A stretch of 50,023 nucleotides of DNA from positions 1 through 50,023 of the forward strand of contig JAILCI010000024.1 of NCBI GenBank assembly GCA_024686335.1, in the 5' to 3' direction. Below the pieces are notes generated by a model. The model was not told the origin of the DNA. It saw nothing but the letters and a program-made list of their open reading frames with translations, and ran no database searches. Within the stretch, counting starts at the first letter, position 1. Every line of letters begins with the position of its first letter. Shown here one piece after another: positions 7,077-50,023 of the stretch. Source of the DNA: Bacteroidales bacterium (GTDB lineage: Bacteria > Bacteroidota > Bacteroidia > Bacteroidales > WCHB1-69). Position numbers and translations under genes: made by a program.

Positions 7077-8408
7077 ATGGCTGTAAGGAAAATCCAACTG
7101 CCAGACGGCACTGTTGAGAACGTCAACGACAGCCGTTTGCATATTTATCGGACTCTCACGGGGACGGCTGCGGTAACCTCGTCCCCGTACTACTGTTCAC
7201 GATGGGATGTCACCGACGACACCGTGACCGCCTACGAGGACGGCATGGTGGTGTGGCTGGAAGTACCCGTGGCGGGCAACGGCTCCTACGGAACGTGCCT
7301 GCAGATCAACTCTCTTGGCTACAAGCCTGTCGTCTACAATGTGAACACTATGATATCCTCGCGCTACTCGGTAGGCTCCATGGTGCTTGCGTGCTACAAC
7401 GCCACGCAGACGGCGACGGCGTACTTCAACAGCGGCAGCGCGACGACTGTGACTGGGTGCTGGCAGGTGATGGACTACGACACCAACACCACGTCCATAA
7501 GCAACCTGTACCATCCGAGAGCGACGAGGGTGGTGACTGGGGGGCAGCTCAAGCGGTACGTCATGTGCGTCGAGGCCGACGAGACGGGTATAATCCCGCT
7601 CAACTACACAGGCACGACAGCGACCACCAAGACCATGACCACGGAGGCGTTCGACCCTACGAGGGAGATACTCTACTACACCACCAACGCAACAGTGGCC
7701 GAGAACAACTCCGTTGCGCTTAGCGGATGCTTCTACTCTAACACATCCGTTGACGCAAGATACACCTTCAACAGTGGTACCACGCTGACGGCCAACAGGG
7801 AGCTGTACATGGTGTTGGATGTGCAGAGCGACGGGCGGCTGTGCAAGCTGGCTTCCACCCCATGGTCGCAGACACTTCCGACCACCGATGACGGTCACGT
7901 ATACCTTCTGCTGGGCTACGCATACGACACCTACCACATAGAGCTCTACCCGCACCACCCCATGTTCAAGCATGACGGCACAAGCCTTAATATATGGCAC
8001 GGGACCATACCCTCCGTGCCTACCAACGTGAGTTCCTTCACCAACGACGCGGGATACTTGACGGAGTACGACTTCAAGCACACTGAAAATACAACCGTAA
8101 GCGACGAATCCGTCACCATTACCTTCGCCGCCAACACGAGAGGCTCGCAGATGATAACCGTCTCCGCGGACATCGGCATAACCTTCGCCGTCAACAACTT
8201 CTCCGACAACTACCTCTGGATAGCCAACAGCGGCAGCGCGGAGATAGACGTCACCGTCAGCGCCGTCACACTCGACGGCACGAGCGTCAGCGACGTGTAC
8301 GTGCCCACTGACGGCATCACAGTACCCGCAGGCGGCGTCTGCGAGCTGGGCATCATCGCCAACAGCGACGGGGCGTTCATAACATCAAGAAACGACTTGG
8401 CAATATGA
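7077..8408 (+). CDS. Phage tail fibre protein
   Basis: 443 residues. The N-terminal tag IQLPDGTVENVNDS resembles that of the upstream shaft protein, which suggests a common anchoring mode. The middle is Tyr/Thr-rich beta text, and at about residues 315-325 the element NVSSFTNDAGYLTEYDF appears, a common fibre motif (S-x-F-x-N-D-x-G-Y). The C-terminal domain (about 335-443) has the look of a small beta-sandwich ending in FITSRNDLAI. Its stop overlaps the next start by 4 nt (ATGA). It is probably a fibre carrying a C-terminal head. There is no chaperone-cleavage or depolymerase motif that I can see. Confidence 0.7.
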   Translation: MAVRKIQLPDGTVENVNDSRLHIYRTLTGTAAVTSSPYYCSRWDVTDDTVTAYEDGMVVWLEVPVAGNGSYGTCLQINSLGYKPVVYNVNTMISSRYSVGSMVLACYNATQTATAYFNSGSATTVTGCWQVMDYDTNTTSISNLYHPRATRVVTGGQLKRYVMCVEADETGIIPLNYTGTTATTKTMTTEAFDPTREILYYTTNATVAENNSVALSGCFYSNTSVDARYTFNSGTTLTANRELYMVLDVQSDGRLCKLASTPWSQTLPTTDDGHVYLLLGYAYDTYHIELYPHHPMFKHDGTSLNIWHGTIPSVPTNVSSFTNDAGYLTEYDFKHTENTTVSDESVTITFAANTRGSQMITVSADIGITFAVNNFSDNYLWIANSGSAEIDVTVSAVTLDGTSVSDVYVPTDGITVPAGGVCELGIIANSDGAFITSRNDLAI

Positions 8409-9019
8409 GGAGACAGATGACCATATCGGCAGGAGGGCTTCCAAGCGGATACACACAGCTCTCGTACATACAGGGCACGGGCAGCCAGCATATCGTCACC
8501 GACATCTACAGCGGAAGGAAGACAAACGTCTCGCTGGACATGACCATGGTCGGTTCGGGAGGCATATTCGTCGGATGGATGTCAGCCGCGAACAACTACT
8601 GTAGAAGCTACATCGCTGCGGCAGACTACAACGTTTCCCTCGGCTACGGGGACGGGTACAACTCGGGATACTACAACAGCAGCGTGAGAATGTCCGTGAA
8701 CGGGAGGTACCTTCTGGAGTACCAGACATTGAGCGGAAGCCACTGGCTCAAGATTGACGGAAACACTGACTTCTCAAGCGCATCGTCATCCACCTACATA
8801 ACCACGCAGAAGTTCACGATATTCGCACGCAACGTGGACGGCACTGCCAACGCCAAATCAAAGTACAAGCTCCACGAGCTTTACATATCGATAGACGACG
8901 TGCTGATGGGGCATTTCATCCCGGTTCTCCGCACGTCCGACAGCAAGCCCGGCCTGTGGGATCTTGTCACATCGACCTTCTACACAAACGCAGGATCGGG
9001 AGAGTTTTCATACGCATAA
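8405..9019 (+). CDS. LamG-like phage receptor-binding or fibre protein
   Basis: 204 residues. It starts with a short basic tag (MRRQMTISAGG), followed by LPSGYTQLSYIQGTGSQHI, a signature frequent in gut-phage tail proteins with a concanavalin A/LamG-like beta-sandwich. The C-terminal text FIPVLRTSDSKPGLWD and FYTNAGSGEF completes that domain. The gene at 12298 has the same organisation (GYTQLSYIESTGTQY at the front, SDSKPGMYD and FYTNAGTGEF at the end), so the two are paralogues at the two ends of the fibre cluster. Such domains usually bind surface glycans. The ligand cannot be read from sequence. Confidence 0.75.
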   Translation: MRRQMTISAGGLPSGYTQLSYIQGTGSQHIVTDIYSGRKTNVSLDMTMVGSGGIFVGWMSAANNYCRSYIAAADYNVSLGYGDGYNSGYYNSSVRMSVNGRYLLEYQTLSGSHWLKIDGNTDFSSASSSTYITTQKFTIFARNVDGTANAKSKYKLHELYISIDDVLMGHFIPVLRTSDSKPGLWDLVTSTFYTNAGSGEFSYA

Positions 9020-31580: not shown

Positions 31581-32633
31581 ATGAATATGGAAGATATTTT
31601 TTCACAACGTCTTAAAAATGCGAGAGTTATGCAAGGCCTGTCTATGGATGGACTGTGCGATAAAATGAATGGTATCGTCTCGAAACAAGCTATTTCTAAA
31701 TATGAACGGGGAGAGATGATGCCAAACAGCAGTGTTTTGTTGGCTCTTTCCAAAGCATTGAATGTTTCTGCGGATTATTTTTTTCGTACTGGTGTCCGTT
31801 TGGAGAATGTTGAATTTCGAAAGAAAGCATCTCTGAGTAAAAAAAAGGAAGCGCAAATCACAGAAATAGTGCGCGATCATTTGGAACGTTATATTCTGAT
31901 TGAAGAGATTGTTTCAATGAATACTCCTTTTAGCAATCCTATTCGGAATTCTGCGATTAGTAATTTCAATGACATTGAAATTGCGGTTCGCGAATTGAGA
32001 AAGGCGTGGTGGATAGGCCTGGATTCACTGCCGAATATAACGGAATTGTTGGAAGATAAAGGTATTAAGATTATTGAAATTGAAGCCGACGACAAGTTTG
32101 ATGGTCTTTCGGCAAATGTAAATAAAGGAACGATTCCCGTTGTTGTAATTAATAAGCAATGGCCTGTGGAACGCAAACGCTTTACCTGTATGCATGAGTT
32201 AGGGCATTTGCTTCTCCAACTGCCTTCAGATTTGGATGAAAAAGCCAAAGAGAATTATTGCCACTATTTTGCAAATGCGATGTTGCTTCCTTGTGACGCT
32301 TTTTTGAGAGAAATAGGACCGAAACGAAGACATTTGTCCACCTCTGAATTGATTCCGATAAAAGAGTATTTTGGGATTTCTATATCAGCTATTTTGAAGC
32401 GGGCACGAGATTTAGAGGTTATCTCAGAATCCTATTATAAGTCGTTTTACATTCGTGTTTTGAGTAAAAACAGAAAAGAAATAGGTTTAGGTAATTATTT
32501 GGGCCGTGAGAGTTCTAACCGATTTATGCAACTGCTTTATAGAGCTACTTCCGAAGAGTTGATTTCCATGAGTCGCGCTGCAGAAATCGCCAATATGACA
32601 TTGTCGGACTATAGAGAAGCCTATTTATCATGA
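31581..32633 (+). CDS. XRE-family regulator with ImmA/IrrE-type metallopeptidase (antitoxin-like)
   Basis: 350 residues. The N-terminal HTH_3 domain (about 7-67) has the recognition helix in VSKQAISKYERG. The middle is a linker, and the C-terminal COG2856-type peptidase carries HELGH (His205, Glu206, His209), with Glu224 or His228 as a possible third ligand in KENYCHYFANAMLLP. Proteins of this build typically repress a nearby gene and, in toxin-antitoxin modules, act as the antitoxin. The stop overlaps the PIN gene by 4 nt. The start is ATG at 31581 with another ATG at 31587. It has its own strong promoter upstream. Confidence 0.85.
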   Translation: MNMEDIFSQRLKNARVMQGLSMDGLCDKMNGIVSKQAISKYERGEMMPNSSVLLALSKALNVSADYFFRTGVRLENVEFRKKASLSKKKEAQITEIVRDHLERYILIEEIVSMNTPFSNPIRNSAISNFNDIEIAVRELRKAWWIGLDSLPNITELLEDKGIKIIEIEADDKFDGLSANVNKGTIPVVVINKQWPVERKRFTCMHELGHLLLQLPSDLDEKAKENYCHYFANAMLLPCDAFLREIGPKRRHLSTSELIPIKEYFGISISAILKRARDLEVISESYYKSFYIRVLSKNRKEIGLGNYLGRESSNRFMQLLYRATSEELISMSRAAEIANMTLSDYREAYLS

Positions 32634-33133
32634 AAATAGTTGTAAATGATGCTAATATTCTGATTGATTTTTGTAAGTTGGAGATACTTGAGGCTTTTTT
32701 TCAGCTCCAGTATGATTTTCAAGTGGTAGATGCTGTGTGGGAAGAATTGAATACGCAACATCAAATACAGTTGCAGCCTTTTATACAAGAAGAGCGTCTT
32801 GCTGTTATTACAGAAGCGGCTGAAATAAAGGATATTCTTCTGATAAAGGAAGAAAGGGGGCAGCTTTCTATACCAGATTGCACATCTTTGCTATACGCAA
32901 AAAAACAACAGACAATCTTGTTGACCAGTGATAAAAACCTGCGATCCACGGCAACCCAGCATAAAGTAGAAGTACACGGTCATCTTTGGATATTTGACAA
33001 TTTGGTGAATTCTGGAATCCTTTCTGGAAAAACTGCAGTAGAGAAATTATTGAACATGACCGCCGAGGTAAACCCTAAATTGGGTCTGCCCAAACCTGAA
33101 CTGGAAATGAGAATAAAGAATTGGAAACAGTAG
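32630..33133 (+). CDS. PIN-domain nuclease, toxin partner of XRE-ImmA
   Basis: 167 residues. PIN-domain acidic positions are visible: Asp7 in VVNDANILIDF, Glu38 in AVWEELN, Asp83 in SIPDCTSLLY, and Asp101 in LLTSDKNLR. These usually coordinate Mg2+ for RNA cleavage. The C-terminal tail (about 125-167) is an extension beyond the basic PIN fold. The ATGA overlap with the XRE-ImmA gene is the standard arrangement for a two-gene module with the regulator first. The target RNA is unknown, and I infer a toxin role only from the pairing. Confidence 0.8.
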   Translation: MKIVVNDANILIDFCKLEILEAFFQLQYDFQVVDAVWEELNTQHQIQLQPFIQEERLAVITEAAEIKDILLIKEERGQLSIPDCTSLLYAKKQQTILLTSDKNLRSTATQHKVEVHGHLWIFDNLVNSGILSGKTAVEKLLNMTAEVNPKLGLPKPELEMRIKNWKQ

Positions 33134-33172
33134 TTTTCTCGTGAATATGATTGCTAAAAACAATCGTTAATA

Positions 33173-33221
33173 TGTCACTTTTCGACATTGAGAAATGTCA
33201 AATTTGATCCCAAAAGTGACA
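33173..33221. repeat. Palindromic repeat, copy 1 (TGTCACTTTT dyad)
   Basis: TGTCACTTTT (33173-33182) and AAAAGTGACA (33212-33221) form 10-bp arms with a 29-nt interior. The interior itself contains GACATT-GAGA-AATGTC, a second hairpin. About 20 nt later comes TAATTTTCAATTATCAATTA-type simple sequence. A second copy with the same 29-nt interior length is at 38420. Confidence 0.75.
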
Positions 33222-33343
33222 CCACTTGCCTTACCCCAATCTAATTTTCAATTATCAATTATCAATTATCAATTCCACTGACACTCCCTGTCACTCGAAT
33301 CCCAAAAATCAACGTTTTTTTGCCAAAATTCTCATTGTTTTTG

Positions 33344-33431: not shown

Positions 33432-34007
33432 ATGAAAAAGATCTTCTATTTTTTGTTCGCGATGACCTTATTTTTCACTGTCTCTGCGCAGGAGCATCTC
33501 AAATTCAAAGGTGTGCCGATAGATGGGACGTTGAAAAATTATACTAATGCGATGATCAATGCCGGTTTCCAATATGAGGGAACACAGGATGGTGTTGCAG
33601 TCCTTTCTGGTGATTTCGCTGGTTATAAGGGGTGTATTGTCGGTGTTTCTACTTTGCAAAATTGCGATGTTGTTAGTTGGATTGCTGTGATTTTTCCTGA
33701 AAAGGATACGTGGATATCTGTTTTAGGAGATTACGAACATCTTAAAGATATGCTGACGGAAAAATATGGTAATCCTCAAAAGTCGAAAGAGGAGTTTACT
33801 GGCTACATTGGTGATTATGATAACGGAATGGTAATGCATGCTTTAAGCAAGGACGAATATGTTTGGTTCACATCATTTTCTACCGAACTTGGAGAAATTG
33901 AGTTGTCAATTATTTCATCTGATTATAGCAAAGCTTCTGTTCGACTGAGATATTATGATAAGATAAATTCCGAGAAGGTTCGTGAGGCGGCGATGGATGA
34001 TTTATAG
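33432..34007 (+). CDS. Small secreted protein of unknown function
   Basis: 191 residues. The signal peptide MKKIFYFLFAMTLFFTVSAQ is followed by EHLKFKGVPIDGTLKNY and a short mixed alpha/beta domain with text such as VSWIAVIFPEKDTW and LKDMLTEKYGNPQKS. Similar short secreted proteins (opening with 'LKFKGIPIDG') are, as I recall, common in gut Bacteroidales. There is no catalytic motif. It lies inside the segment bordered by the palindromic repeats at 33173 and 38420, but its promoter and signal peptide make it unlikely to be part of the intracellular system next to it. Confidence 0.75.
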   Translation: MKKIFYFLFAMTLFFTVSAQEHLKFKGVPIDGTLKNYTNAMINAGFQYEGTQDGVAVLSGDFAGYKGCIVGVSTLQNCDVVSWIAVIFPEKDTWISVLGDYEHLKDMLTEKYGNPQKSKEEFTGYIGDYDNGMVMHALSKDEYVWFTSFSTELGEIELSIISSDYSKASVRLRYYDKINSEKVREAAMDDL

Positions 34008-34094: not shown

Positions 34095-35627
34095 ATGTAC
34101 AAATCATCTGATGATATTATTCCGTTTTGGGGCGAGAAGATATCTAGTAAGAATGGTCGTGACCCTCTTGCTATTCAAAATAGTAGTGTGGTTATATATG
34201 TTAAAATGATAAGTGGCATTACCAACGTGACGACGAGAGTTCGTTATAATGGGTTCTATTGTTGGCTTTTGAACTTGATTTCAAATAGGCTCTTTAAACC
34301 AGGTTCCACGTTAATGGATACTCCTAAGGAACAGATTAAATATCTCAGACGTGGAGAATTGTTGTTGGCCTATGTGATGCAATATTGTTATCCTCAAGTT
34401 ACTGGTGTGGGAGGCAGTAACTATACATCTAAACAGCTGTTCAAAGGAATTTTTAACATTGCCAAAGGTGCAGATTTAGATAATAAGGATACTGCTTATT
34501 GGAAAGGTAAACTTGGAGTGTTTGGCCAATATTACGTAGGTGCTATGGCTCGTCTGAGACTAGTCAAATATCCCGATGCTAGTCATCGTTCTTATAGGGT
34601 TGCCAAACCAAATGGAATTAATCTTTCCAGTGTTTTTTCTAAGTCACTGACGAAGGAAATTGAAGATTTATTCTGGGAAGCGATTCATTCCGGTGAAATT
34701 TCGGAAGGGAAACTCCGTAAATTGAATAAGTTAGCTCTTCACCTTATAGATGATAAAGATGAACTTGATGAATATCAAAAAATATTTAGTGCTACAGATG
34801 AAATTGACAATGAAACTAACCATACATTTTCGACCATTAAATTGCTAATGACATTTATTAAAGGCGAAGGATTTTCAGTTAAACCTAAATCATTAGTGTT
34901 GTCCTTTTTACGCTACAATTTTCTAGAAACGTTGAAGGAGAATTTCATAGTAAAGAACGAACAGCTTTCTTGGTTCATGTATGAGCTTAATGAATTGACA
35001 CATGCTGCTTATGAAGCATATCACTTTGCTATTTTGTATTCTACTACGGAAGATTCTCAACCATTAGATTTGATTATTGGAAGTATAGAACGTGGTTTTA
35101 AGGAATGTGAGAGTTTGACGGAGACAATTGATGGGATATATGAACTATACAATAAAATGCAATCTTGTTATAAAACAAAAGAATATGGGGAATTAGTGTA
35201 TTTTGCATCCCAGTTGCTCATATCATTATTTAAATCAATTGAGAAAGACAAAGATAAACTCAATTCTTTTGGAATTCAAGAGGGATATTATAGGCATCCA
35301 GGATTTGCTCCTACATTATTGGAAAGGTTGGTCGGTACTGGTGACAGAATCTGTGATTGGCCTATGGCAGAAAATTGTATTTACTCCGCTATTAATGACC
35401 ATTTATATAGTTCGTATACCAAGTCTTCTATAGGCCAAGGTGTTGTGCATAATTATATGGTAGACGACGGCTTGATTTGGCGTTTAAGGCTGACAGAGCC
35501 AGTTAGGACTTCTCCACGTCTTCAGAACGTTTTACAATATATAGAAGATATGAAATGGATTGAAAGAGATGCTGAAGACTGTTATGTACTTACTGAGCGT
35601 GGAACTGAAATAATGCAAGTGAAATGA
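34095..35627 (+). CDS. Unknown protein paired with a PLD-like protein (candidate defence gene 1)
   Basis: 510 residues. I do not recognise a family. The N-terminal part has DDIIPFWGEK and a Tyr-rich segment around VRYNGFYCWLLNLI. The middle is mostly helical, and the last 60 residues (VRTSPRLQNVLQYIEDMKW and onward) look like a winged-helix end with a short beta hairpin and TERGTEIMQ. There is no signal peptide or membrane segment. The gene is AT-rich relative to the chromosomal genes at 17-26 kb. It overlaps the PLD-like gene by 4 nt (ATGA), so the products probably act together. It could be a sensor or adaptor for the nuclease-like partner. Confidence 0.7.
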   Translation: MYKSSDDIIPFWGEKISSKNGRDPLAIQNSSVVIYVKMISGITNVTTRVRYNGFYCWLLNLISNRLFKPGSTLMDTPKEQIKYLRRGELLLAYVMQYCYPQVTGVGGSNYTSKQLFKGIFNIAKGADLDNKDTAYWKGKLGVFGQYYVGAMARLRLVKYPDASHRSYRVAKPNGINLSSVFSKSLTKEIEDLFWEAIHSGEISEGKLRKLNKLALHLIDDKDELDEYQKIFSATDEIDNETNHTFSTIKLLMTFIKGEGFSVKPKSLVLSFLRYNFLETLKENFIVKNEQLSWFMYELNELTHAAYEAYHFAILYSTTEDSQPLDLIIGSIERGFKECESLTETIDGIYELYNKMQSCYKTKEYGELVYFASQLLISLFKSIEKDKDKLNSFGIQEGYYRHPGFAPTLLERLVGTGDRICDWPMAENCIYSAINDHLYSSYTKSSIGQGVVHNYMVDDGLIWRLRLTEPVRTSPRLQNVLQYIEDMKWIERDAEDCYVLTERGTEIMQVK

Positions 35628-38209
35628 TTCCCTTTAGACAACTTATAAATGAGATACCTGCAAAGAAATTCCATTCTGCAGTAATGACTTCGTTTTCGAT
35701 AAATTTATATTATTGCGAAGTGCAATTGCTTCGAACTCTGGCTGGCAAAGGAATTAATTTTGTGTCAGCAATTGTTGATTCAGATTGTCTTTCTAATCAA
35801 CTATTAAAATTTAGCAATGCCTTTGAACGAAAACGTTCTTTGGATTTCAGTATTCATGGGTATAAAACAAAGGGTGCATTTCATCCAAAAATACAATTTT
35901 ATGCAGGGGAGAAGAGTGTATTAGTTCTTGTCGGATCCGGGAATTTAACAGTAATGGGACACGGTAAGAATCTTGAAGTCTGGTCTCCGTTTATGGTTGA
36001 AAGTGTTGATAGCCCGGCATATCCATTGGTGCGAGATGTGTGGAACTATCTTAAAGGGATTTATAATCAGCTTGGAACCGAAGCTGATTATATTGTTCGT
36101 TCTATCGAGGAAAATTGTGCTATTCTACAAAAGCAATATGATGGGGATGTTATAGAGCATATTGTTGGAGAAAATAGTGTTAGGCTTTTCACCAATAAAA
36201 ATACATCATTATTTGACCAATGTATTGATTGGATAGGGGATGACAAAATCAAGACTATTACTATCATGGTGCCATTCTATGATGATGAGGCAAAATTGAT
36301 TAAAGCTTTGAATGAAAGATTTAAACCTCAAGAAATGAACCTTGTTGTAGAAGAGGGCTTTGGAGTGTTGCCAAATAAGAAAAGTATTCCTGACTATATC
36401 ACGATGTATGATTGGAGGAGTATTAAAGATTCTTTTGGGAATATGTATCAAAGTTATTTCCACTCTAAGTGTTTTTTCTTTGCTGGAGAAATGTATAATT
36501 ATATGCTTTGTGGAAGTGCTAATGCATCGGTGGCTGCTTTTGGTATCCCAGGTGCTAACCCTACAAATCATGAAACTTGCGTAGGGTTTAAGTCCAAATC
36601 AACAAATTATTTAAAATTGTCCGAGTTCGAATTGAATGATTCAATTAATGTTGATGATATTATTTCAACAAAAGAGCCTAAAGATAATTATAACTCCGAA
36701 GGCACCCAGAGCCTTTGGATAAAGGAAGCATCGTATTGTAATGACGAATATGAGTTATCTATAGAAAACCAATCCGATGAAATAGATGTGAATATAGCCT
36801 TTTTTACAGGGAGTAGATCAGATTCCTTTTGCTTCAAAGAACATTTGAAATGGGGATCGAGTATGATAAAAGGCATATTTAACTTACCGATTAACCCACT
36901 TTATGTTGAGATAACAAATTCCAAAGGAGTTCTGATTTCCAATCGTCAGTTTGTGATACCGACGGATATACTAGGAGTAAATAATCCTTCACCTGAATCC
37001 GTGTATATTAGGAAAAGATGTCGTGAAATCGAATCTGGCAATTTTGTCAATGGTCAGATGCTTAAATTTTTCACGGATCTTTTTTTTGTCCAAAATTCAA
37101 AAAAGCCATTGAATAGCATTTCAAATGAAAGTGCCGAGAAACCAGTAAGTGATGAAGAAGGGTTTTCATTTGACTCTTTAGAGGAATACCTCCGAGATGA
37201 TAGTCCAGAAATGCCAAATGTCTTAAGAGGAAGAAAGGGTAGAGAATCTACACGTCGTTCTATGATGTTTTTTGATAGTATTGTTTCATATATATCTAAG
37301 AGCTTTCAGGAAAAGAAGAATGAGGATATTGATGAAGAAGAAACTGAAGATGTTTCTAAATCATCAGGCCGAGACAAATCTGAATCACAAAATAGAGCTG
37401 TGAAAAAAGAGAAGGAAGCAAACAATATTAGAGATAGGATTTTAAAAATGTTTGACAAGTATATTTCGAACCTGGAATTTTCTGCTTTGTCAGAAAGGGA
37501 TGTTAAACGATCTATCTCATTACTTGAGGAATTAAAACAATTTATGGCCGCTATATTTTTCTTATATAGAACTTTCAGTTATAGATATACTTTGACAAAT
37601 GATGATGAAACGGAACATTCACTTATAAAACTTTTGAGATTACCAACTGATAGAAAGACTGCAACGGAGTATTTTTATCGAATAACATCTTTGTTTGGAT
37701 TGTACGTGATGAAATCAGCAATCCTGGATGAAGATGACAAGAATGATAAAAGAAATATTACTGAACTTTTGCAATATGCTTTTAAATTGTGTCTTACAGT
37801 TTTTTCAGTTTGCGATTGTTTAAATGAGAGCAATAAAGATTATGAAATGTTGGCTCCATACAAAGCTGTTGCTATAATGAATTTGAGACATTCACTATGT
37901 ATTGATATAGATTCTATTACAACTGATCAAGTGTTTGAGTTGTTGGATAGAGATATTCAGCTGATGGATGAATTTGATGAAACAGCTATAAAGACTTATA
38001 TCAACAATAATATTGCGTTATTAAATAATCCAGATAAAATTGTCAAGGATGATGTATTTGGATATTACTTTCTGAAGTCCTTTAATAAGTATGTTGCATT
38101 GCCATGTACGATGGCTTATCAATTCAATTCGGTAAAGCGGGAATATTGTTCTGATTATCGATACTTTTATAAACAACAAAAGATGGTAAAAGTTTACCCA
38201 TATAAATAA
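35624..38209 (+). CDS. PLD (HKD)-like nuclease-type protein (candidate defence gene 2)
   Basis: 861 residues. Two phospholipase D half-sites are visible: His87-x-Lys89 in AFHPKIQF with GSGN at 104-107, and His280-x-Lys282 in YFHSKCFFF with GSAN at 297-300. Two HxK(x)nGSxN copies within one chain normally build a single active site for phosphodiester cleavage by a covalent His intermediate, as in HKD nucleases and in PLD components of some defence systems. The C-terminal 500 residues contain an acidic low-complexity stretch (about 560-615) and a helical end without a recognised domain. It is coupled to the preceding unknown gene. Length and pairing match no named system that I know. Confidence 0.8.
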   Translation: MIPFRQLINEIPAKKFHSAVMTSFSINLYYCEVQLLRTLAGKGINFVSAIVDSDCLSNQLLKFSNAFERKRSLDFSIHGYKTKGAFHPKIQFYAGEKSVLVLVGSGNLTVMGHGKNLEVWSPFMVESVDSPAYPLVRDVWNYLKGIYNQLGTEADYIVRSIEENCAILQKQYDGDVIEHIVGENSVRLFTNKNTSLFDQCIDWIGDDKIKTITIMVPFYDDEAKLIKALNERFKPQEMNLVVEEGFGVLPNKKSIPDYITMYDWRSIKDSFGNMYQSYFHSKCFFFAGEMYNYMLCGSANASVAAFGIPGANPTNHETCVGFKSKSTNYLKLSEFELNDSINVDDIISTKEPKDNYNSEGTQSLWIKEASYCNDEYELSIENQSDEIDVNIAFFTGSRSDSFCFKEHLKWGSSMIKGIFNLPINPLYVEITNSKGVLISNRQFVIPTDILGVNNPSPESVYIRKRCREIESGNFVNGQMLKFFTDLFFVQNSKKPLNSISNESAEKPVSDEEGFSFDSLEEYLRDDSPEMPNVLRGRKGRESTRRSMMFFDSIVSYISKSFQEKKNEDIDEEETEDVSKSSGRDKSESQNRAVKKEKEANNIRDRILKMFDKYISNLEFSALSERDVKRSISLLEELKQFMAAIFFLYRTFSYRYTLTNDDETEHSLIKLLRLPTDRKTATEYFYRITSLFGLYVMKSAILDEDDKNDKRNITELLQYAFKLCLTVFSVCDCLNESNKDYEMLAPYKAVAIMNLRHSLCIDIDSITTDQVFELLDRDIQLMDEFDETAIKTYINNNIALLNNPDKIVKDDVFGYYFLKSFNKYVALPCTMAYQFNSVKREYCSDYRYFYKQQKMVKVYPYK

Positions 38210-38419
38210 AAATCGAAATTAAGAAATATTTTTTTAACCACTGAAATTTTCATGGTATAAATATTCGATTTGCTTAAGTTGTCAGAAAAGGATTGAAATA
38301 TCACCTTTTATTTGCCACTTTTGACTTCTCTTTTTTGGCGATTTTACAATGAAAACTGTCATAGTCTGCTTCCCTAATGATTCCCTTGCTTTCATGATTG
38401 CCAAAAATGTGCGTTAAAA

Positions 38420-38468
38420 TGTCACTTTTGAGCTTTGTGAAATGACGAATTGAATGCCAAAAGTGACA
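38420..38468. repeat. Palindromic repeat, copy 2 (TGTCACTTTT dyad)
   Basis: TGTCACTTTT (38420-38429) and AAAAGTGACA (38459-38468), identical arms to copy 1 at 33173, again with a 29-nt interior. About 19 of the 29 interior bases match copy 1, and both copies are followed by a similar TAATTTTCAA-type tail. The two copies have the same orientation and border the secreted-protein and PLD genes. Confidence 0.75.
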
Positions 38469-38520
38469 GCACCAACCATCCTCAAATATAATTTTCAACT
38501 TTCAATTTTCAATTAAAAAC

Positions 38521-39979: not shown

Positions 39980-40046
39980 AATGTTTGTTTTTTTGAATTA
40001 ATAATAAAGTTAATAAGCTCATAAATCTGTGATCAAATTGATGTTG

Positions 40047-40085
40047 CAAAAGTAATTCAGATAGGTTCAGTCATATTGAACCTAT
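40047..40085 (-). promoter_or_regulatory. Promoter and operator dyad A, upstream of DUF2130
   Basis: On the minus strand a TACTTTTG box (40054-40047) is preceded by ATTCAG (6 nt, plus-strand reading) and the dyad ATAGGTTCA (40061-40069), 7 nt, TGAACCTAT (40077-40085). There is no -33 TTG at the usual distance, so the dyad covers the region where it would be. The same layout recurs at 44244-44282 and 47612-47650. Confidence 0.7.
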
Positions 40086-40140
40086 TTGAGATAGCTGTAA
40101 ATTATGCTTGTAAAATATTTTGTTGTAATGAATAGCTGAA

Positions 40141-44218: not shown

Positions 44219-44243
44219 AACAGTATATTTTTTATTTACAATG

Positions 44244-44282
44244 CAAAATTAAAAACCATAGGTTCAGTGATATTGAACCTAT
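44244..44282 (-). promoter_or_regulatory. Promoter and operator dyad B, upstream of hsdR
   Basis: On the minus strand TAATTTTG (44251-44244) is 6 nt from the dyad ATAGGTTCA (44258-44266), 7 nt, TGAACCTAT (44274-44282). The dyad touches the last codon of hsdS. The predicted transcript would start near 44237, giving a short leader before hsdR (44218). Confidence 0.75.
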
Positions 44283-45502
44283 TAGCACACTTTTCTTTTA
44301 CCTGTCACCACCTCCGTGATGAGGGATTGCTTATATTCACGCAGAAGTTCAATCTGTCGCTTGACTGCTGTGATTTGCTTGTCGATTTCAGCACAACGGG
44401 AGTCAAGATAATTGGCAATTTCCGTTTGTTCAGTAGGGTCGGGGTAGGGTAATCTTACATTCGCATAACTATCTGCGGAAATCTCTTTAAAAGTTGCTCC
44501 AGAACCTAACAAATCAAAGAATTCAGTTGCGACACTAAGAACATAATAGTAGAATAATGAATTTACTTCTTTGGGCACACAAGATAAACATCCTTGGTTT
44601 GTACATAGTTCAACGTTATTAATTGCAACAGTGCCTATTGGTGCTCGTTTGGAGAAAATTATACTGCCTGGAGGGACTAATTGCGTATTACAAGAATTAT
44701 AACCTTGTTGGGTGATTGTTCTTGAACCTTTATCGATGAACTTGTCTTCAGTTTTATAATCGGCTGGAGTTACCCATACAATGTCTCCATCCCAGTAGTT
44801 TTTATTTTCTGTTTTTGGTGTGGCTCCAGCAAAAATATCAAAGAAGAATTTGATTTTTTTGACTTCCCAATGTTCTGGCACCATCCCAATCCATTCCACA
44901 CCGCTGTCCTTCATAGGCACGTTTGGGTTGAGGCCGCGTGTCACCGCTTGGGTGATTTCACTTTGCTTCAGTTCCTGCAGAAGTTCAATGCGTCGCTCCT
45001 GTGTGGCTACAACCTTGTCGATGTCCGCGCAACGGGCGTCTAAGTAAGAGGCGATAGCTTGCTGCTCGGGGAGAGGTGGAACACAAACATGATTATTACC
45101 TAAATCTGTTTGCGTCATGCTTGGTAATGCAGTAGCTGTCTGATAATATGCAAATGGAAAAGTTATTGCTTGATAAAACATGTATCTACAACATGTCTTA
45201 TTTTTAGGAATAGCATAAAACATTGTGTCGACAGCCCAAAATTTCCCTTTAAAATATAATGGTTTATCTACAGTTCCTTTTCGACCTAATAAAACAACTT
45301 CTCCATCATGCATGAATTGAGATGCATAAGCAAATTGTCCACCAGAACCAATAACGGGATAACCATCCTCTGCTTGAACATGTTTATAATCCATACCATT
45401 GTTTATGTTCATATTGAATTTGAAAGGCATAACTTCCCAATGTTCTGGCACATCGCCAATCCACTCAATACCTGATGACTTATATTTATCGTATTGCTTC
45501 AT
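44282..45502 (-). CDS. hsdS: Type I restriction-modification system, specificity subunit
   Basis: 406 residues with the duplicated half-structure of HsdS. The repeat SGIEWIGDVPEHWEV (about 10-24) and SGVEWIGMVPEHWEV (200-214) open the two target-recognition domains. PPLPEQQAIASYLD (142-155) and DPTEQTEIANYLD (355-367) open the two conserved spacers. HsdS recognises the DNA target, each half contributing one part of a bipartite site. The stop is 63 nt before hsdR, and hsdM ends 2 nt before its start. The recognition sequence cannot be read from the protein by eye. Confidence 0.93.
   Translation of the reverse strand: MKQYDKYKSSGIEWIGDVPEHWEVMPFKFNMNINNGMDYKHVQAEDGYPVIGSGGQFAYASQFMHDGEVVLLGRKGTVDKPLYFKGKFWAVDTMFYAIPKNKTCCRYMFYQAITFPFAYYQTATALPSMTQTDLGNNHVCVPPLPEQQAIASYLDARCADIDKVVATQERRIELLQELKQSEITQAVTRGLNPNVPMKDSGVEWIGMVPEHWEVKKIKFFFDIFAGATPKTENKNYWDGDIVWVTPADYKTEDKFIDKGSRTITQQGYNSCNTQLVPPGSIIFSKRAPIGTVAINNVELCTNQGCLSCVPKEVNSLFYYYVLSVATEFFDLLGSGATFKEISADSYANVRLPYPDPTEQTEIANYLDSRCAEIDKQITAVKRQIELLREYKQSLITEVVTGKRKVC
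44862..45451. repeat. 20-bp direct repeats inside hsdS
   Basis: Two identical 20-bp copies of ACTTCCCAATGTTCTGGCAC, at 44862-44881 and 45432-45451, encode the PEHWEV region in front of the two recognition domains. Such repeats can mediate exchange of recognition halves by recombination. Confidence 0.7.
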
Positions 45503-47611: not shown

Positions 47612-47650
47612 CAAATATTAAAAAAATAGGTTCAGAGATATTGGAGATAT
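47612..47650 (-). promoter_or_regulatory. Promoter and operator dyad C, upstream of the 31-codon ORF
   Basis: On the minus strand AATATTTG (47619-47612, one mismatch to TAnnTTTG) is exactly 6 nt from ATAGGTTCA (47626-47634), 7 nt, TGGAGATAT (47642-47650). The second arm is degenerate (6 of 9 bases). The geometry is identical to copies A and B. It overlaps the stop codon of the gene at 47650. Confidence 0.6.
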
Positions 47651-48732
47651 TATTGTTGTTGAACAAGAAGTCGATTTCGTAGGTCATGTATTGTGGAAAA
47701 TGTGTTTGATCCACACAATGCTACGTAATTTTTCGCATTATCTGTTCCTTGATCGTACTCACATTTTCCTCTTATATGCATTTCTTGGAATTTTGTAAGT
47801 AGGTCGTTTATTCTTTTAACTGCTGGACTAGAATTGTCATAAAGGCCATGAGAATAAACGTACTCAATTCGAAGATCTTGGTTGCATATTGGACAACCAT
47901 CATTCTTAAAAGCTTTTATTAGATGATCTACTGTTATGATGAAATAATTTGAAATAATTCTACGATCATGTGTGGCATCATAATTGAAACAACTACCGGA
48001 GACTGAAAACAACTCGATAATAATATTATATGGTTTTCTAAGTTCTAGTTTGATAAACTCATCAAGTTGTCTTACTACATTTTCTCTTTTATAGTTGCGA
48101 TCTGTGCTGGCATTTTCGTCAAATAATACAAGTACATGATAGTCACATGATAATGATTTGGGAAGAATGCATCTTAATATCTGTTTGATGTTCTCAATCC
48201 CATCCGTATAACCACTTTTATATTTCCCCTCCCATCCGAATATATACCTGTCTACGATTATTAAAGAATTACTGGGTACTTTTAAACCATTATTGAAAAG
48301 ATCTTTCCAAGAGTATTCATAATTATCTTTAAATAAAGCAATTTTATGCTCTTCTCCAGATATGTCACATTCACGTAGGTTATCGGTTGATTGGCATAGG
48401 ATGCCGTATTTTTCCTGTATAGCTTGAGCTTGTTGTTTATCAATATCTAGTAAAAAAACGCCTTGAGGTTCACTTAATAGGAACTCAGTATCATCATTAA
48501 TTATATTGTTAAAGTCTTTTTTTGATACTGTCAAATTGATGTCATAGCTTTCTGAAAAGGTGAACAAAGGATCGTTGTAATCTTCCAATTCTTCATATAT
48601 GTTTTTGTCTAGAAATAAAACAGTTTGTTTTGACAAAAGAGTAAACCAAACATTTCGTTCTTTTTCCTCTTTGGGCATCTCTTCTAAGCAAATGCGCTCC
48701 AATGAAGCAGCTGAAATATATATTCTAAACAT
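47650..48732 (-). CDS. Unknown protein paired with AAA ATPase (candidate defence effector)
   Basis: 360 residues, cytosolic. A strand-rich N-terminal part (MFRIYISAASLERI) leads to a helical middle, and text such as NSLIIVDRYIFGWEGKYK and DYHVLVLFDENAS shows buried beta strands ending in acidic residues, as in nuclease-like or Rossmann folds. A C-x-x-C (CPICNQDL, near residue 282-290) and a Cys nearby may bind a metal. I do not recognise the family. It starts 3 nt after the end of the ATPase gene, so they form one operon and probably one system. It is AT-rich like the PLD module. Confidence 0.65.
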   Translation of the reverse strand: MFRIYISAASLERICLEEMPKEEKERNVWFTLLSKQTVLFLDKNIYEELEDYNDPLFTFSESYDINLTVSKKDFNNIINDDTEFLLSEPQGVFLLDIDKQQAQAIQEKYGILCQSTDNLRECDISGEEHKIALFKDNYEYSWKDLFNNGLKVPSNSLIIVDRYIFGWEGKYKSGYTDGIENIKQILRCILPKSLSCDYHVLVLFDENASTDRNYKRENVVRQLDEFIKLELRKPYNIIIELFSVSGSCFNYDATHDRRIISNYFIITVDHLIKAFKNDGCPICNQDLRIEYVYSHGLYDNSSPAVKRINDLLTKFQEMHIRGKCEYDQGTDNAKNYVALCGSNTFSTIHDLRNRLLVQQQ

Positions 48733-48735
48733 ATG

Positions 48736-50023
48736 TTACTCTTGTTTTTTTGCATTCTTCAACACAGCCATATGTAACTTTCCAGCCTCATTAATGAACC
48801 CATCACCAAATTTTCTTTCAAAGAGGCCAGTGGTAGAATAAACCATATCATAGGGAATACCGTCGGAAGGGAAATAATAGACCTTGAAAGGATTGTGGTT
48901 GTCAAGTTTTTCTTGGGTGGTGTAGTTGTTTCCGACAATGACTTGCGAACGTCGTATTAGATATTCAGAATGGGTTTCTATTATGAAACGAAAATCATAT
49001 TTGGTGTTCAGTTCGAAAAACAAATCGGCAATTTTACTCTGAAACATAGGATGGAGATTTTGTTCAGGTTCCTCTATGATGATAATGTGCGAATAGTGAA
49101 GCCTCGAATTGAGATTGTTTGCTGATTTTGACTTTTTGGGGAGCGTTATAGCCAATCTGAATAAAAGTACCATCAATTGAATGCTTCCCATTCCCATATC
49201 TGCCAGGTTAACAGATTTATCATTGTTGTTAATAATTTTAACTAGGTGTGCTTCTCCTCCAACAGATGTTATTTTGTAATCCTTTCCTATGCCAAATTCT
49301 TTCATCCAATATTTTATAAAAGTTCTTTTATAATCTCCGTCAGATTTTGGAAGTGAAGCAAATTCGTCAATGGTTCTCGAAAGATAATCATTTGTGTCTT
49401 TTGCACTGTAGATAACGGTTTGAGTTACTGCATGAGCATATAGGTATTCTATAGATATAATTCCTTGCAAATATTGAGTTTTAGGAAAACGGAAAATCCA
49501 TTCTTCACCTTTAGGATTGTCAAATACTGTTAGAGTGTACTTTTTAAGGAAGGTAACAGTTTCTTCGTTGACATTATCTATAGGTTTTAATTTATTTACT
49601 AATTCACTACCAATATAATTTTTAGTTTTATCAAATTCCATAGTAGCGCTAATGGCTATTTCAATGGTAGATTCTAGGGTGTCAATTAAATCAAGACCGT
49701 AATACTTTAGATATTGTGTGATATTATATTCTAACCTGTATTTTTTAGGGATAGATTTCAAAAATGATTGTACAACAGTTCTCTTTTTGCCAGAAATAAA
49801 CGATAATTGACCACTCGAAACTTCTGTTGACTTGAATTCAATTGTTGCAGTATTGTTTTGGAGATCGAAAAGAGAATAAATACCCATCGATATATATTCG
49901 ATACTAATCTTTGAAATAATACCATATGCCGTTTCTTCGTCGTTGTTGTCTCCTATAACATCGATTGAGATATATTGTTCTCCTAAACAAGTGGAAAAAG
50001 TAATGATGTTATTTTTTGCTTCA
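48736..50023 (-). CDS. AAA ATPase, DUF3696-like (5' end outside window)
   Basis: The frame stays open through the right edge: the 45 codons before the Met at 49887 read as ordinary protein (KNNIITFSTCLGEQY, GDNNDEETAYGIISK), so the start lies beyond base 50023. A signature and D-loop type part are followed by the Walker B-like strand HIIIIEEPEQNLHPMFQSK and the sensor ETHSEYLIRRSQ. The C-terminal FGDGFINEAGKLH resembles the DUF3696 ending. Walker A should be in the missing part. ATPases of this AAA15/OLD-like group drive several two-gene defence systems, as sensors for their effector. Confidence 0.8.
   Translation of the reverse strand, partial: EAKNNIITFSTCLGEQYISIDVIGDNNDEETAYGIISKISIEYISMGIYSLFDLQNNTATIEFKSTEVSSGQLSFISGKKRTVVQSFLKSIPKKYRLEYNITQYLKYYGLDLIDTLESTIEIAISATMEFDKTKNYIGSELVNKLKPIDNVNEETVTFLKKYTLTVFDNPKGEEWIFRFPKTQYLQGIISIEYLYAHAVTQTVIYSAKDTNDYLSRTIDEFASLPKSDGDYKRTFIKYWMKEFGIGKDYKITSVGGEAHLVKIINNNDKSVNLADMGMGSIQLMVLLFRLAITLPKKSKSANNLNSRLHYSHIIIIEEPEQNLHPMFQSKIADLFFELNTKYDFRFIIETHSEYLIRRSQVIVGNNYTTQEKLDNHNPFKVYYFPSDGIPYDMVYSTTGLFERKFGDGFINEAGKLHMAVLKNAKKQE

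Follow-up and report, generated by a model that had tools for sequence, protein, structure and literature searches.

A probable helicase-free sister branch of the ZacA–ZacB core of Azaca, most likely a two-subunit nuclease complex, in a Bacteroidales genome

A 50,023-nucleotide (nt) stretch of DNA from a Bacteroidales bacterium (GenBank assembly GCA_024686335.1, contig JAILCI010000024.1, positions 1 to 50,023), hereafter the window, carries two overlapping genes, here called A and B, which form a real two-gene module. The reading we favour is that this pair represents a helicase-free, enlarged sister branch of the ZacA–ZacB core of the Azaca defence system, most likely acting as a two-subunit nuclease complex. 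The first-pass annotation had delimited the two genes from the sequence alone; its coordinates, protein lengths and overlap were all reproduced, and the principal features, in window positions, are as follows.

34095..35627, plus strand: gene A, 510 amino acids (aa), ZacA-related protein, called as an open reading frame (ORF)
35624..38209, plus strand: gene B, 861 aa, ZacB-related phospholipase D (PLD) protein, called as an ORF
35624..35627, plus strand: overlap of the A stop and the B start, 4 nt
35882..35944, plus strand: PLD half-site 1 of B, H87-P-K89 ... G104-S105-G-N107, with H, K, S and N identical in 28/28 proteins
36461..36523, plus strand: PLD half-site 2 of B, H280-S-K282 ... G297-S298-A-N300, with H, K, G, S and N identical in 28/28 proteins

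Profile searches with both proteins bore out the two-component module proposed at the outset: of the 32 loci with relatives that were examined, spanning Bacteroidota to Streptomyces plasmids, 30 have A and B side by side, and the two exceptions hold fragments. Among the first 30 loci (the window and 29 others), A and B are neighbours on one strand in 29, the exception being a predicted viral contig (L072) with a truncated B alone. Since the first queries included some of these genes, the loci were relabelled with independent profiles built from 13 rows each of the A and B alignments; these found A in 29/30 and B in 30/30 loci, with 1.6e-9 for the most distant A. Some loci are close to each other (L042/L066, L014/L015 and L006/L065) and so do not count as independent. 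The order is reversed in L091 (6180-10249), where B precedes A with a 4-nt overlap, and L092 (genome G530; 8096-8662) holds a 188-aa A fragment with no B seen in the fetched stretch, which is partly N. The genome of L092 also carries a canonical Azaca locus.

The two genes overlap in 28 of 29 pair loci, by exactly 4 nt in 16 (ORF starts were set mechanically for these counts), and in the window the 4-nt overlap may couple their translation. Across 27 loci the distance matrices of A and B correlated at r = 0.95, a value to which shared host ancestry can contribute and which none of 5000 permutations reached; without four near relatives the correlation was 0.94.

In a phylum census, A was present in 6 of 395 genomes, with B next to it in all six, and nine further genomes gave weak matches to the B profile only (≤46.7 bits). 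A genus census of 40 genomes, 23 of them counted as high-quality, returned the pair once, in the source genome itself. The pair also occurs on plasmids and on predicted viral contigs (IMG/VR). When 72,556 plasmid records were searched by tblastn with A, 15 matched; 12 of these also have B, and in the remaining three (Rhizobium) the match spans 49 residues of A only. Five plasmid records were matched by B alone, and in all three that were fetched a diverged A adjoins B. A phage-encoded origin was dropped because neither A nor B had a tblastn match in 50,697 phage records at 1e-5, even though the pair is present on the IMG/VR predicted viral contigs.

Two papers list Azaca among defence systems and ascribe to it a PLD-like domain and the helicase ZacC (PMC10952713, PMC10925250), and a review gives its mechanism as unknown (PMC12926258). 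The PADLOC ZacB model matched all 13 B proteins searched (E ≤ 0.01, best 5.7e-18), and the ZacA model matched 7 of 13 A proteins, the set including the window's (E ≤ 1, best 1.5e-5). Profile–profile comparison of 27 A with eight ZacA sequences gave a probability of 95.2 (E 2.7e-8) over 89 N-terminal columns, and that of 28 B with six ZacB sequences gave 98.3 (E 2.4e-14) over the PLD core; 13-sequence profiles gave only 61.6% for A against ZacA and 97.2% for B against ZacB. The relation was also recovered in the reverse direction: a ZacA model search of 297 genomes of another phylum yielded nine canonical Azaca loci, and the A and B profiles found 8/9 of the ZacA places and 8/9 of the ZacB places, respectively. 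The idea of a wholly unknown pair was dropped in view of this homology.

By remote homology only, then, the window has a ZacA-type gene directly upstream of a ZacB-type gene, and B is a ZacB-type PLD protein; no ZacC helicase was found as third gene. The pair shares with Azaca two adjoining genes in equal order, the ZacA-type N-terminal block and a PLD protein with two half-sites. It differs in that no ZacC was found here, in the size of A (510 aa, the ZacA model having 396 positions) and in the size of B (861 aa, the ZacB model having 586 positions), which has an added linker and C-terminal part. B also stands apart from ZacB: in a PLD-core tree of 34 rows, made by a quick method and with long branches flagged, one branch parts the two (Shimodaira–Hasegawa-like approximate likelihood-ratio test, SH-aLRT, 100). 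Judged from sequence, the pair is not Azaca as defined, given that no ZacC was found, the larger proteins and the separate branch of B. The pairing had initially been described as unfamiliar; its relatives match a named system, which the first-pass annotation had set as a ground for refutation, but the same three differences keep it distinct. In the open-access literature no paper on the A–B pair was found, most subscription papers lying outside this coverage. Canonical ZacA resembles Pfam DUF6361, a likeness on which nothing in this analysis rests.

Several points weigh against the favoured reading. The window's A alone matches no ZacA model (0 families), and the link between A and ZacA rests on relatives and on a block of ~90 residues, with the lower probability given above when 13-sequence profiles are used. 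Part of the ZacB signal is a general PLD signal, because the window's B matches the PADLOC candidate model PDC-M27B and ZacB equally (1.2e-7 and 1.4e-7) and other relatives of B are picked up by the DrmC and DpdK profiles. The structure model of B is only moderately confident (pTM 0.52). Partial helicase matches to ZacC were found in 4 of 10 genomes searched (best 6.4e-15), and in some relatives a translocase of another system lies close to the pair; both observations weaken the case for ATP independence.

A ZacC search of the source genome returned no candidate. By comparison, in all eight canonical Azaca loci fetched, ZacB is followed by a helicase-type ORF with a DEVGLGKT motif (833-1095 aa, one being cut by the fetched edge). 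The best of the partial matches, in genome G297, is an ORF on the opposite strand some 8 kb past the pair, and the match in G395 falls within the DrmD-like helicase that lies upstream of the L001 pair. Of the ORFs neighbouring the pair in 30 loci, the DrmD-like helicases upstream in L001 and L013 were alone in matching three ZacC queries (E ≤ 1e-3; 1.5e-6 to 5.9e-12).

Two loci from a second phylum, L089 and L090, stand between the A–B pair and canonical Azaca, each having an A-like, a B-like and a helicase-type ORF in a row.

L089, 7076-10432 and 3591-7124: A-type 435 aa, B-type 681 aa, then a 1177-aa ORF with a ZacC match of 4e-13
L090, 5387-10625: A-type 385 aa, B-type 592 aa, then a 767-aa ORF with a ZacC match of 1e-6

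Their B proteins match the pair's B profile at 4.6e-21 (L089) and 3.3e-23 (L090), better than the two ZacB proteins tested (8e-9 and 7e-7). Helicase-followed proteins measure 385-435 aa for the A-type (10 proteins) and 592-681 aa for the B-type (8 proteins, leaving out one row with an N run and one mechanical 720-aa ORF with an over-extended start), whereas pair-only A proteins measure 497-585 aa (27 proteins) and pair-only B proteins 708-938 aa (28 proteins). A and B are thus longer where the helicase is absent. Homology to ZacA and ZacB would also be expected of a degenerate Azaca, whose ZacC had been lost or was supplied elsewhere and whose remaining pair no longer had a function. We regard this as very improbable, since the source genome has no ZacC match, the catalytic residues are kept in 28/28 B proteins, and the single branch between B and ZacB, in the quick tree with its flagged long branches, suggests that the helicase-free pairs are one old branch rather than single losses.

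B carries two half-sites with H, K and N kept in 28/28 sequences, the pattern of a PLD superfamily phosphodiesterase, and it matches Pfam PLDc_2. Eight residues (H87, K89, S105, N107, H280, K282, S298 and N300) are invariant in all 28 aligned proteins. The classical HKD motif has an Asp five residues past the Lys, and this Asp is found in 0/28 B proteins at either half-site. The two half-sites that had been called complete are therefore present, with their HxK...GSxN residues, but lack the classical Asp at both positions.

The model of B, built with 12 sequences (predicted local distance difference test, pLDDT, 69.7; predicted template modelling score, pTM, 0.52), shows a two-lobed PLD part (1-345), a beta-strand-rich domain (~363-446), a linker (~469-590; pLDDT <50) and a helical-plus-beta C-terminal part (~592-857). 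Among five near relatives, identity is 0.74 and 0.61 in the PLD lobes against 0.43 and 0.40 in the C-terminal part, for which a sequence search against solved structures gave nothing at E ≤ 1. The best Foldseek match of the model in the PDB is TDP1 (E 2.1e-9; template modelling score 0.50 by target and 0.27 by query), followed by PPK1, SauUSI and NgoAVII.

TDP1, like B, has its two half-sites in a single chain and lacks the classical Asp; B differs from it in sequence (10-13% identity in the listed matches), in having further C-terminal domains and a constant partner gene, and in its defence context. A function in DNA repair or plasmid maintenance, with B removing protein–DNA adducts as TDP1 does, would fit this nearest solved fold and the shared lack of the Asp. 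It fits poorly with the sporadic distribution (6/395; 1/40) and with the position of the pair beside defence genes and on mobile DNA, and we give it very little weight.

Other PLD proteins of defence systems resemble B in part. The PLD restriction enzymes SauUSI and R.NgoAVII have PLD folds among the Foldseek matches of B at E ≤ 0.001, but B has no helicase domain and is matched over one part only (164-259 alignment columns). DISARM DrmC and DpdK belong to the same superfamily, and their hidden Markov models (HMMs) match 16/28 (best 1.6e-8) and 5/28 (best 6.2e-7) B relatives, respectively; the window's B matches neither, and the matches in relatives are weaker than those to ZacB. Membership in DISARM was dropped, as no DrmA or DrmB appears among the listed PADLOC matches of 12 window proteins around the pair. 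PDC-M27B matches 11/13 B relatives (best 6.9e-10) and is level with ZacB for the window's B, although across the B family its match is weaker than that of ZacB; PDC-M27 membership was dropped because 0/13 A relatives match any PDC-M27 model (E ≤ 1).

The window's A matches no Pfam, PADLOC or NCBIfam family at E ≤ 0.01. Its family alignments show a conserved N-terminal block (residues ~19-60) with the consensus G-x-D-P-L-G...G-I-T-N-V-T-x-R-x-R-Y. An AlphaFold2 model of the 510-residue protein, made with 13 sequences (pLDDT 85.5, pTM 0.85), predicts an all-helical protein with a C-terminal winged helix (~454-508), and Foldseek found nothing for it in the PDB or BFVD at E ≤ 0.001. Pfam HTH_45 matches 5/13 A proteins (E ≤ 1, best 1.9e-6) and NCBIfam Sso10a matches 4/27 A relatives (E ≤ 0.1, best 1.1e-4). 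Identity among five near relatives is 0.81 in the N-terminal block, 0.77 in the winged helix region and 0.53 in the helical core.

From these data we infer an A–B complex, its DNA substrate, an anti-phage role, ATP independence and a trigger, the anti-invader function being deduced from context, sporadic distribution and kinship to Azaca. B is probably a defence nuclease, which A either brings to invading DNA or restrains there; such a positioning or restraining role for A is suggested by its winged helix and by the strict pairing. PLD superfamily enzymes act through a covalent phospho-histidine and are metal-independent. Carrying both half-sites on one chain, B should have a single composite active site, where it would hydrolyse phosphodiester bonds by the same metal-independent, phospho-histidine route. 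A would serve as a helical adaptor whose C-terminal winged helix binds DNA and holds B on the DNA or restrained from it, invading phage or plasmid DNA would be cut without a dedicated ATP-driven motor, and a candidate part for recognition or activation is the C-terminal half of B, which diverges fast.

The same winged helix, of DNA-binding type, would suit an abortive-infection or toxin-antitoxin-like arrangement, in which a toxic nuclease B is kept inactive by A and freed on infection. The leading position of A with its 4-nt overlap in 16/29 loci and the strict co-inheritance of the two genes agree with such an arrangement; the large size of A (497-585 aa) and the B–A order in L091 speak against it, neither of them strongly, and we judge it unlikely.

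The nuclease-complex reading can be extended, tentatively and with less than even confidence, to an undescribed, self-contained two-protein restriction machine without an ATP motor. A new-fold winged-helix adaptor would be combined with a TDP1-like nuclease, the C-terminal half of B would replace the sensing or positioning by ZacC, and the pair would be a portable effector beside restriction–modification (R-M), Zorya or Tiamat-like operons. Three-gene Azaca types and A–B pairs would then be two solutions on one core. As an analogy only, one paper describes another portable pair, a metallo-beta-lactamase-fold nuclease with a protease, acquired by several systems (PMC12799240). The A–B pair shows a likely irreducible core, a ZacA-like adaptor with a PLD enzyme, and lets the role of the helicase be asked directly. 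A widespread helicase-free sister with the Azaca core would offer a smaller object for biochemistry and would add a family that the PADLOC HMM library does not name with confidence.

The surroundings of the relatives support an association with defence genes. R-M components lie in the fetched stretch of 8/30 loci (the window, L006, L007, L009, L042, L043, L046 and L069), a count that was the same with independent queries, that is subject to differing flank sizes and that includes L042 with only an HsdR-like ORF; the other 22/30 loci have no hsd label. The hsd genes are close to the pair and on its strand in L006, L007, L043 and L046, and on the opposite strand in the window, L009 and L069. Three other loci have Zorya, Tiamat-like or DrmD-like neighbours. 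The defence association suggested by the first-pass annotation thus extends to these relatives, but several pair loci have no defence neighbour under the labels used.

Such neighbours raise the alternative of a plug-in effector, in which the pair is an extra nuclease module that borrows a neighbour's translocase (HsdR, Zorya D or DrmD-like) in place of ZacC. In L007 the pair is flanked by hsdS and hsdR. It lies downstream of hsdR in L006, two ORFs away, and in L043, one ORF away; in L001 and L013 a single ORF separates it from a DrmD-like helicase ahead of it; in L011 it follows an annotated Zorya set, and in L001 a Tiamat TmtA-like gene accompanies the DrmD-like gene upstream. A "ZorB-like" label for an L001 gene was withdrawn after it failed with an independent query. 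Ten pair-bearing genomes were searched for N6_Mtase, the contigs of G104 and G397 being too short to tell, and 5 of the 8 testable genomes (G000, G351, G339, G046 and G297) have a match of ≥190 bits no more than 12 kb from the pair, both limits having been chosen after seeing the values. The product of the chance probabilities for these five is 3.4e-9, and the three negatives (G395, G396, which has only 2.4 kb of upstream contig, and G398) have no strong N6_Mtase anywhere in the genome. Against borrowing, R-M components are within reach in only 8/30 loci, L004, L008, L012, L014 and L015 have no translocase neighbour under the labels used, and the window's R-M set is on the other strand with the end of hsdR 2.4 kb from the pair. 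We consider borrowing rather unlikely, though a better candidate than the toxin-like arrangement.

Two Prevotella loci have genes for a C39-type peptidase and a Sir2-type protein after the pair (L001, 14151-15513; L006, 12136-13539). These genes are annotated in L006 and were judged by position and size in L001, and the systems upstream differ. Pair, peptidase and Sir2-type gene may perhaps form a larger portable cassette.

In the window, the pair is AT-rich, as first noted, with a G+C content of 34.2% against 45.7% in the remainder. It also lies, as had been described, between copies of a palindromic repeat: a palindrome-bearing 122-nt direct repeat, its copies identical at 94/122 positions (best of 300 mononucleotide shuffles, 61/122), encloses A, B and a 191-aa ORF. 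A search of the 2.74-Mb assembly with the repeat gave 19 matches, namely the two flanking copies and 17 on the AT-rich 3' part of the query only; no third full copy was found, 40 of 50 first-look candidates having been scored. The exact 10-bp-arm palindrome pattern occurs in the assembly only at these two copies. The 191-aa ORF is unmatched in PADLOC, Pfam and NCBIfam at E ≤ 0.01. Defence-type genes adjoin on both sides, in line with the surroundings originally reported: 5' of the pair lie an RmrA-like helix-turn-helix (HTH)/peptidase regulator and a PIN-type gene, and 3' of it, on the opposite strand, a DUF2130 protein, a 161-aa ORF and then hsdR, hsdS and hsdM, a type I R-M set. Further features of the window are listed here.

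31581-33133: RmrA-like HTH/ImmA-IrrE regulator (PADLOC best 4.8e-44) and weak-PIN gene, overlapping by 4 nt
33147..33268, plus strand: left 122-nt repeat copy, 10-bp-arm palindrome at 33173-33221
33432-34007: 191-aa ORF with a signal-peptide-like start, inside the repeat-bounded cassette with A and B
38394..38515, plus strand: right 122-nt repeat copy, palindrome at 38420-38468
47650-50022, minus strand: two ORFs beside hsdM

The regulator and the PIN-type gene make a toxin-antitoxin-like pair, which we take to be what is named RosmerTA; the matches of the PIN-type gene are weak (PDC-S70 at 2.1e-8, Pfam PIN under its cut-off). A second palindromic repeat of 42 nt, separate from the 122-nt repeat around the A–B cassette, has copies at 40045-40086 and 44242-44283 that are 83% identical and bracket the 161-aa ORF and hsdR. 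Of the two ORFs beside hsdM, the first encodes 360 aa and is unmatched in PADLOC at E ≤ 0.001, and the second encodes an AAA-ATPase-like protein that matches the NsnB, HEC-03B and AriA models (best 1.1e-18); together they are possibly another defence pair.

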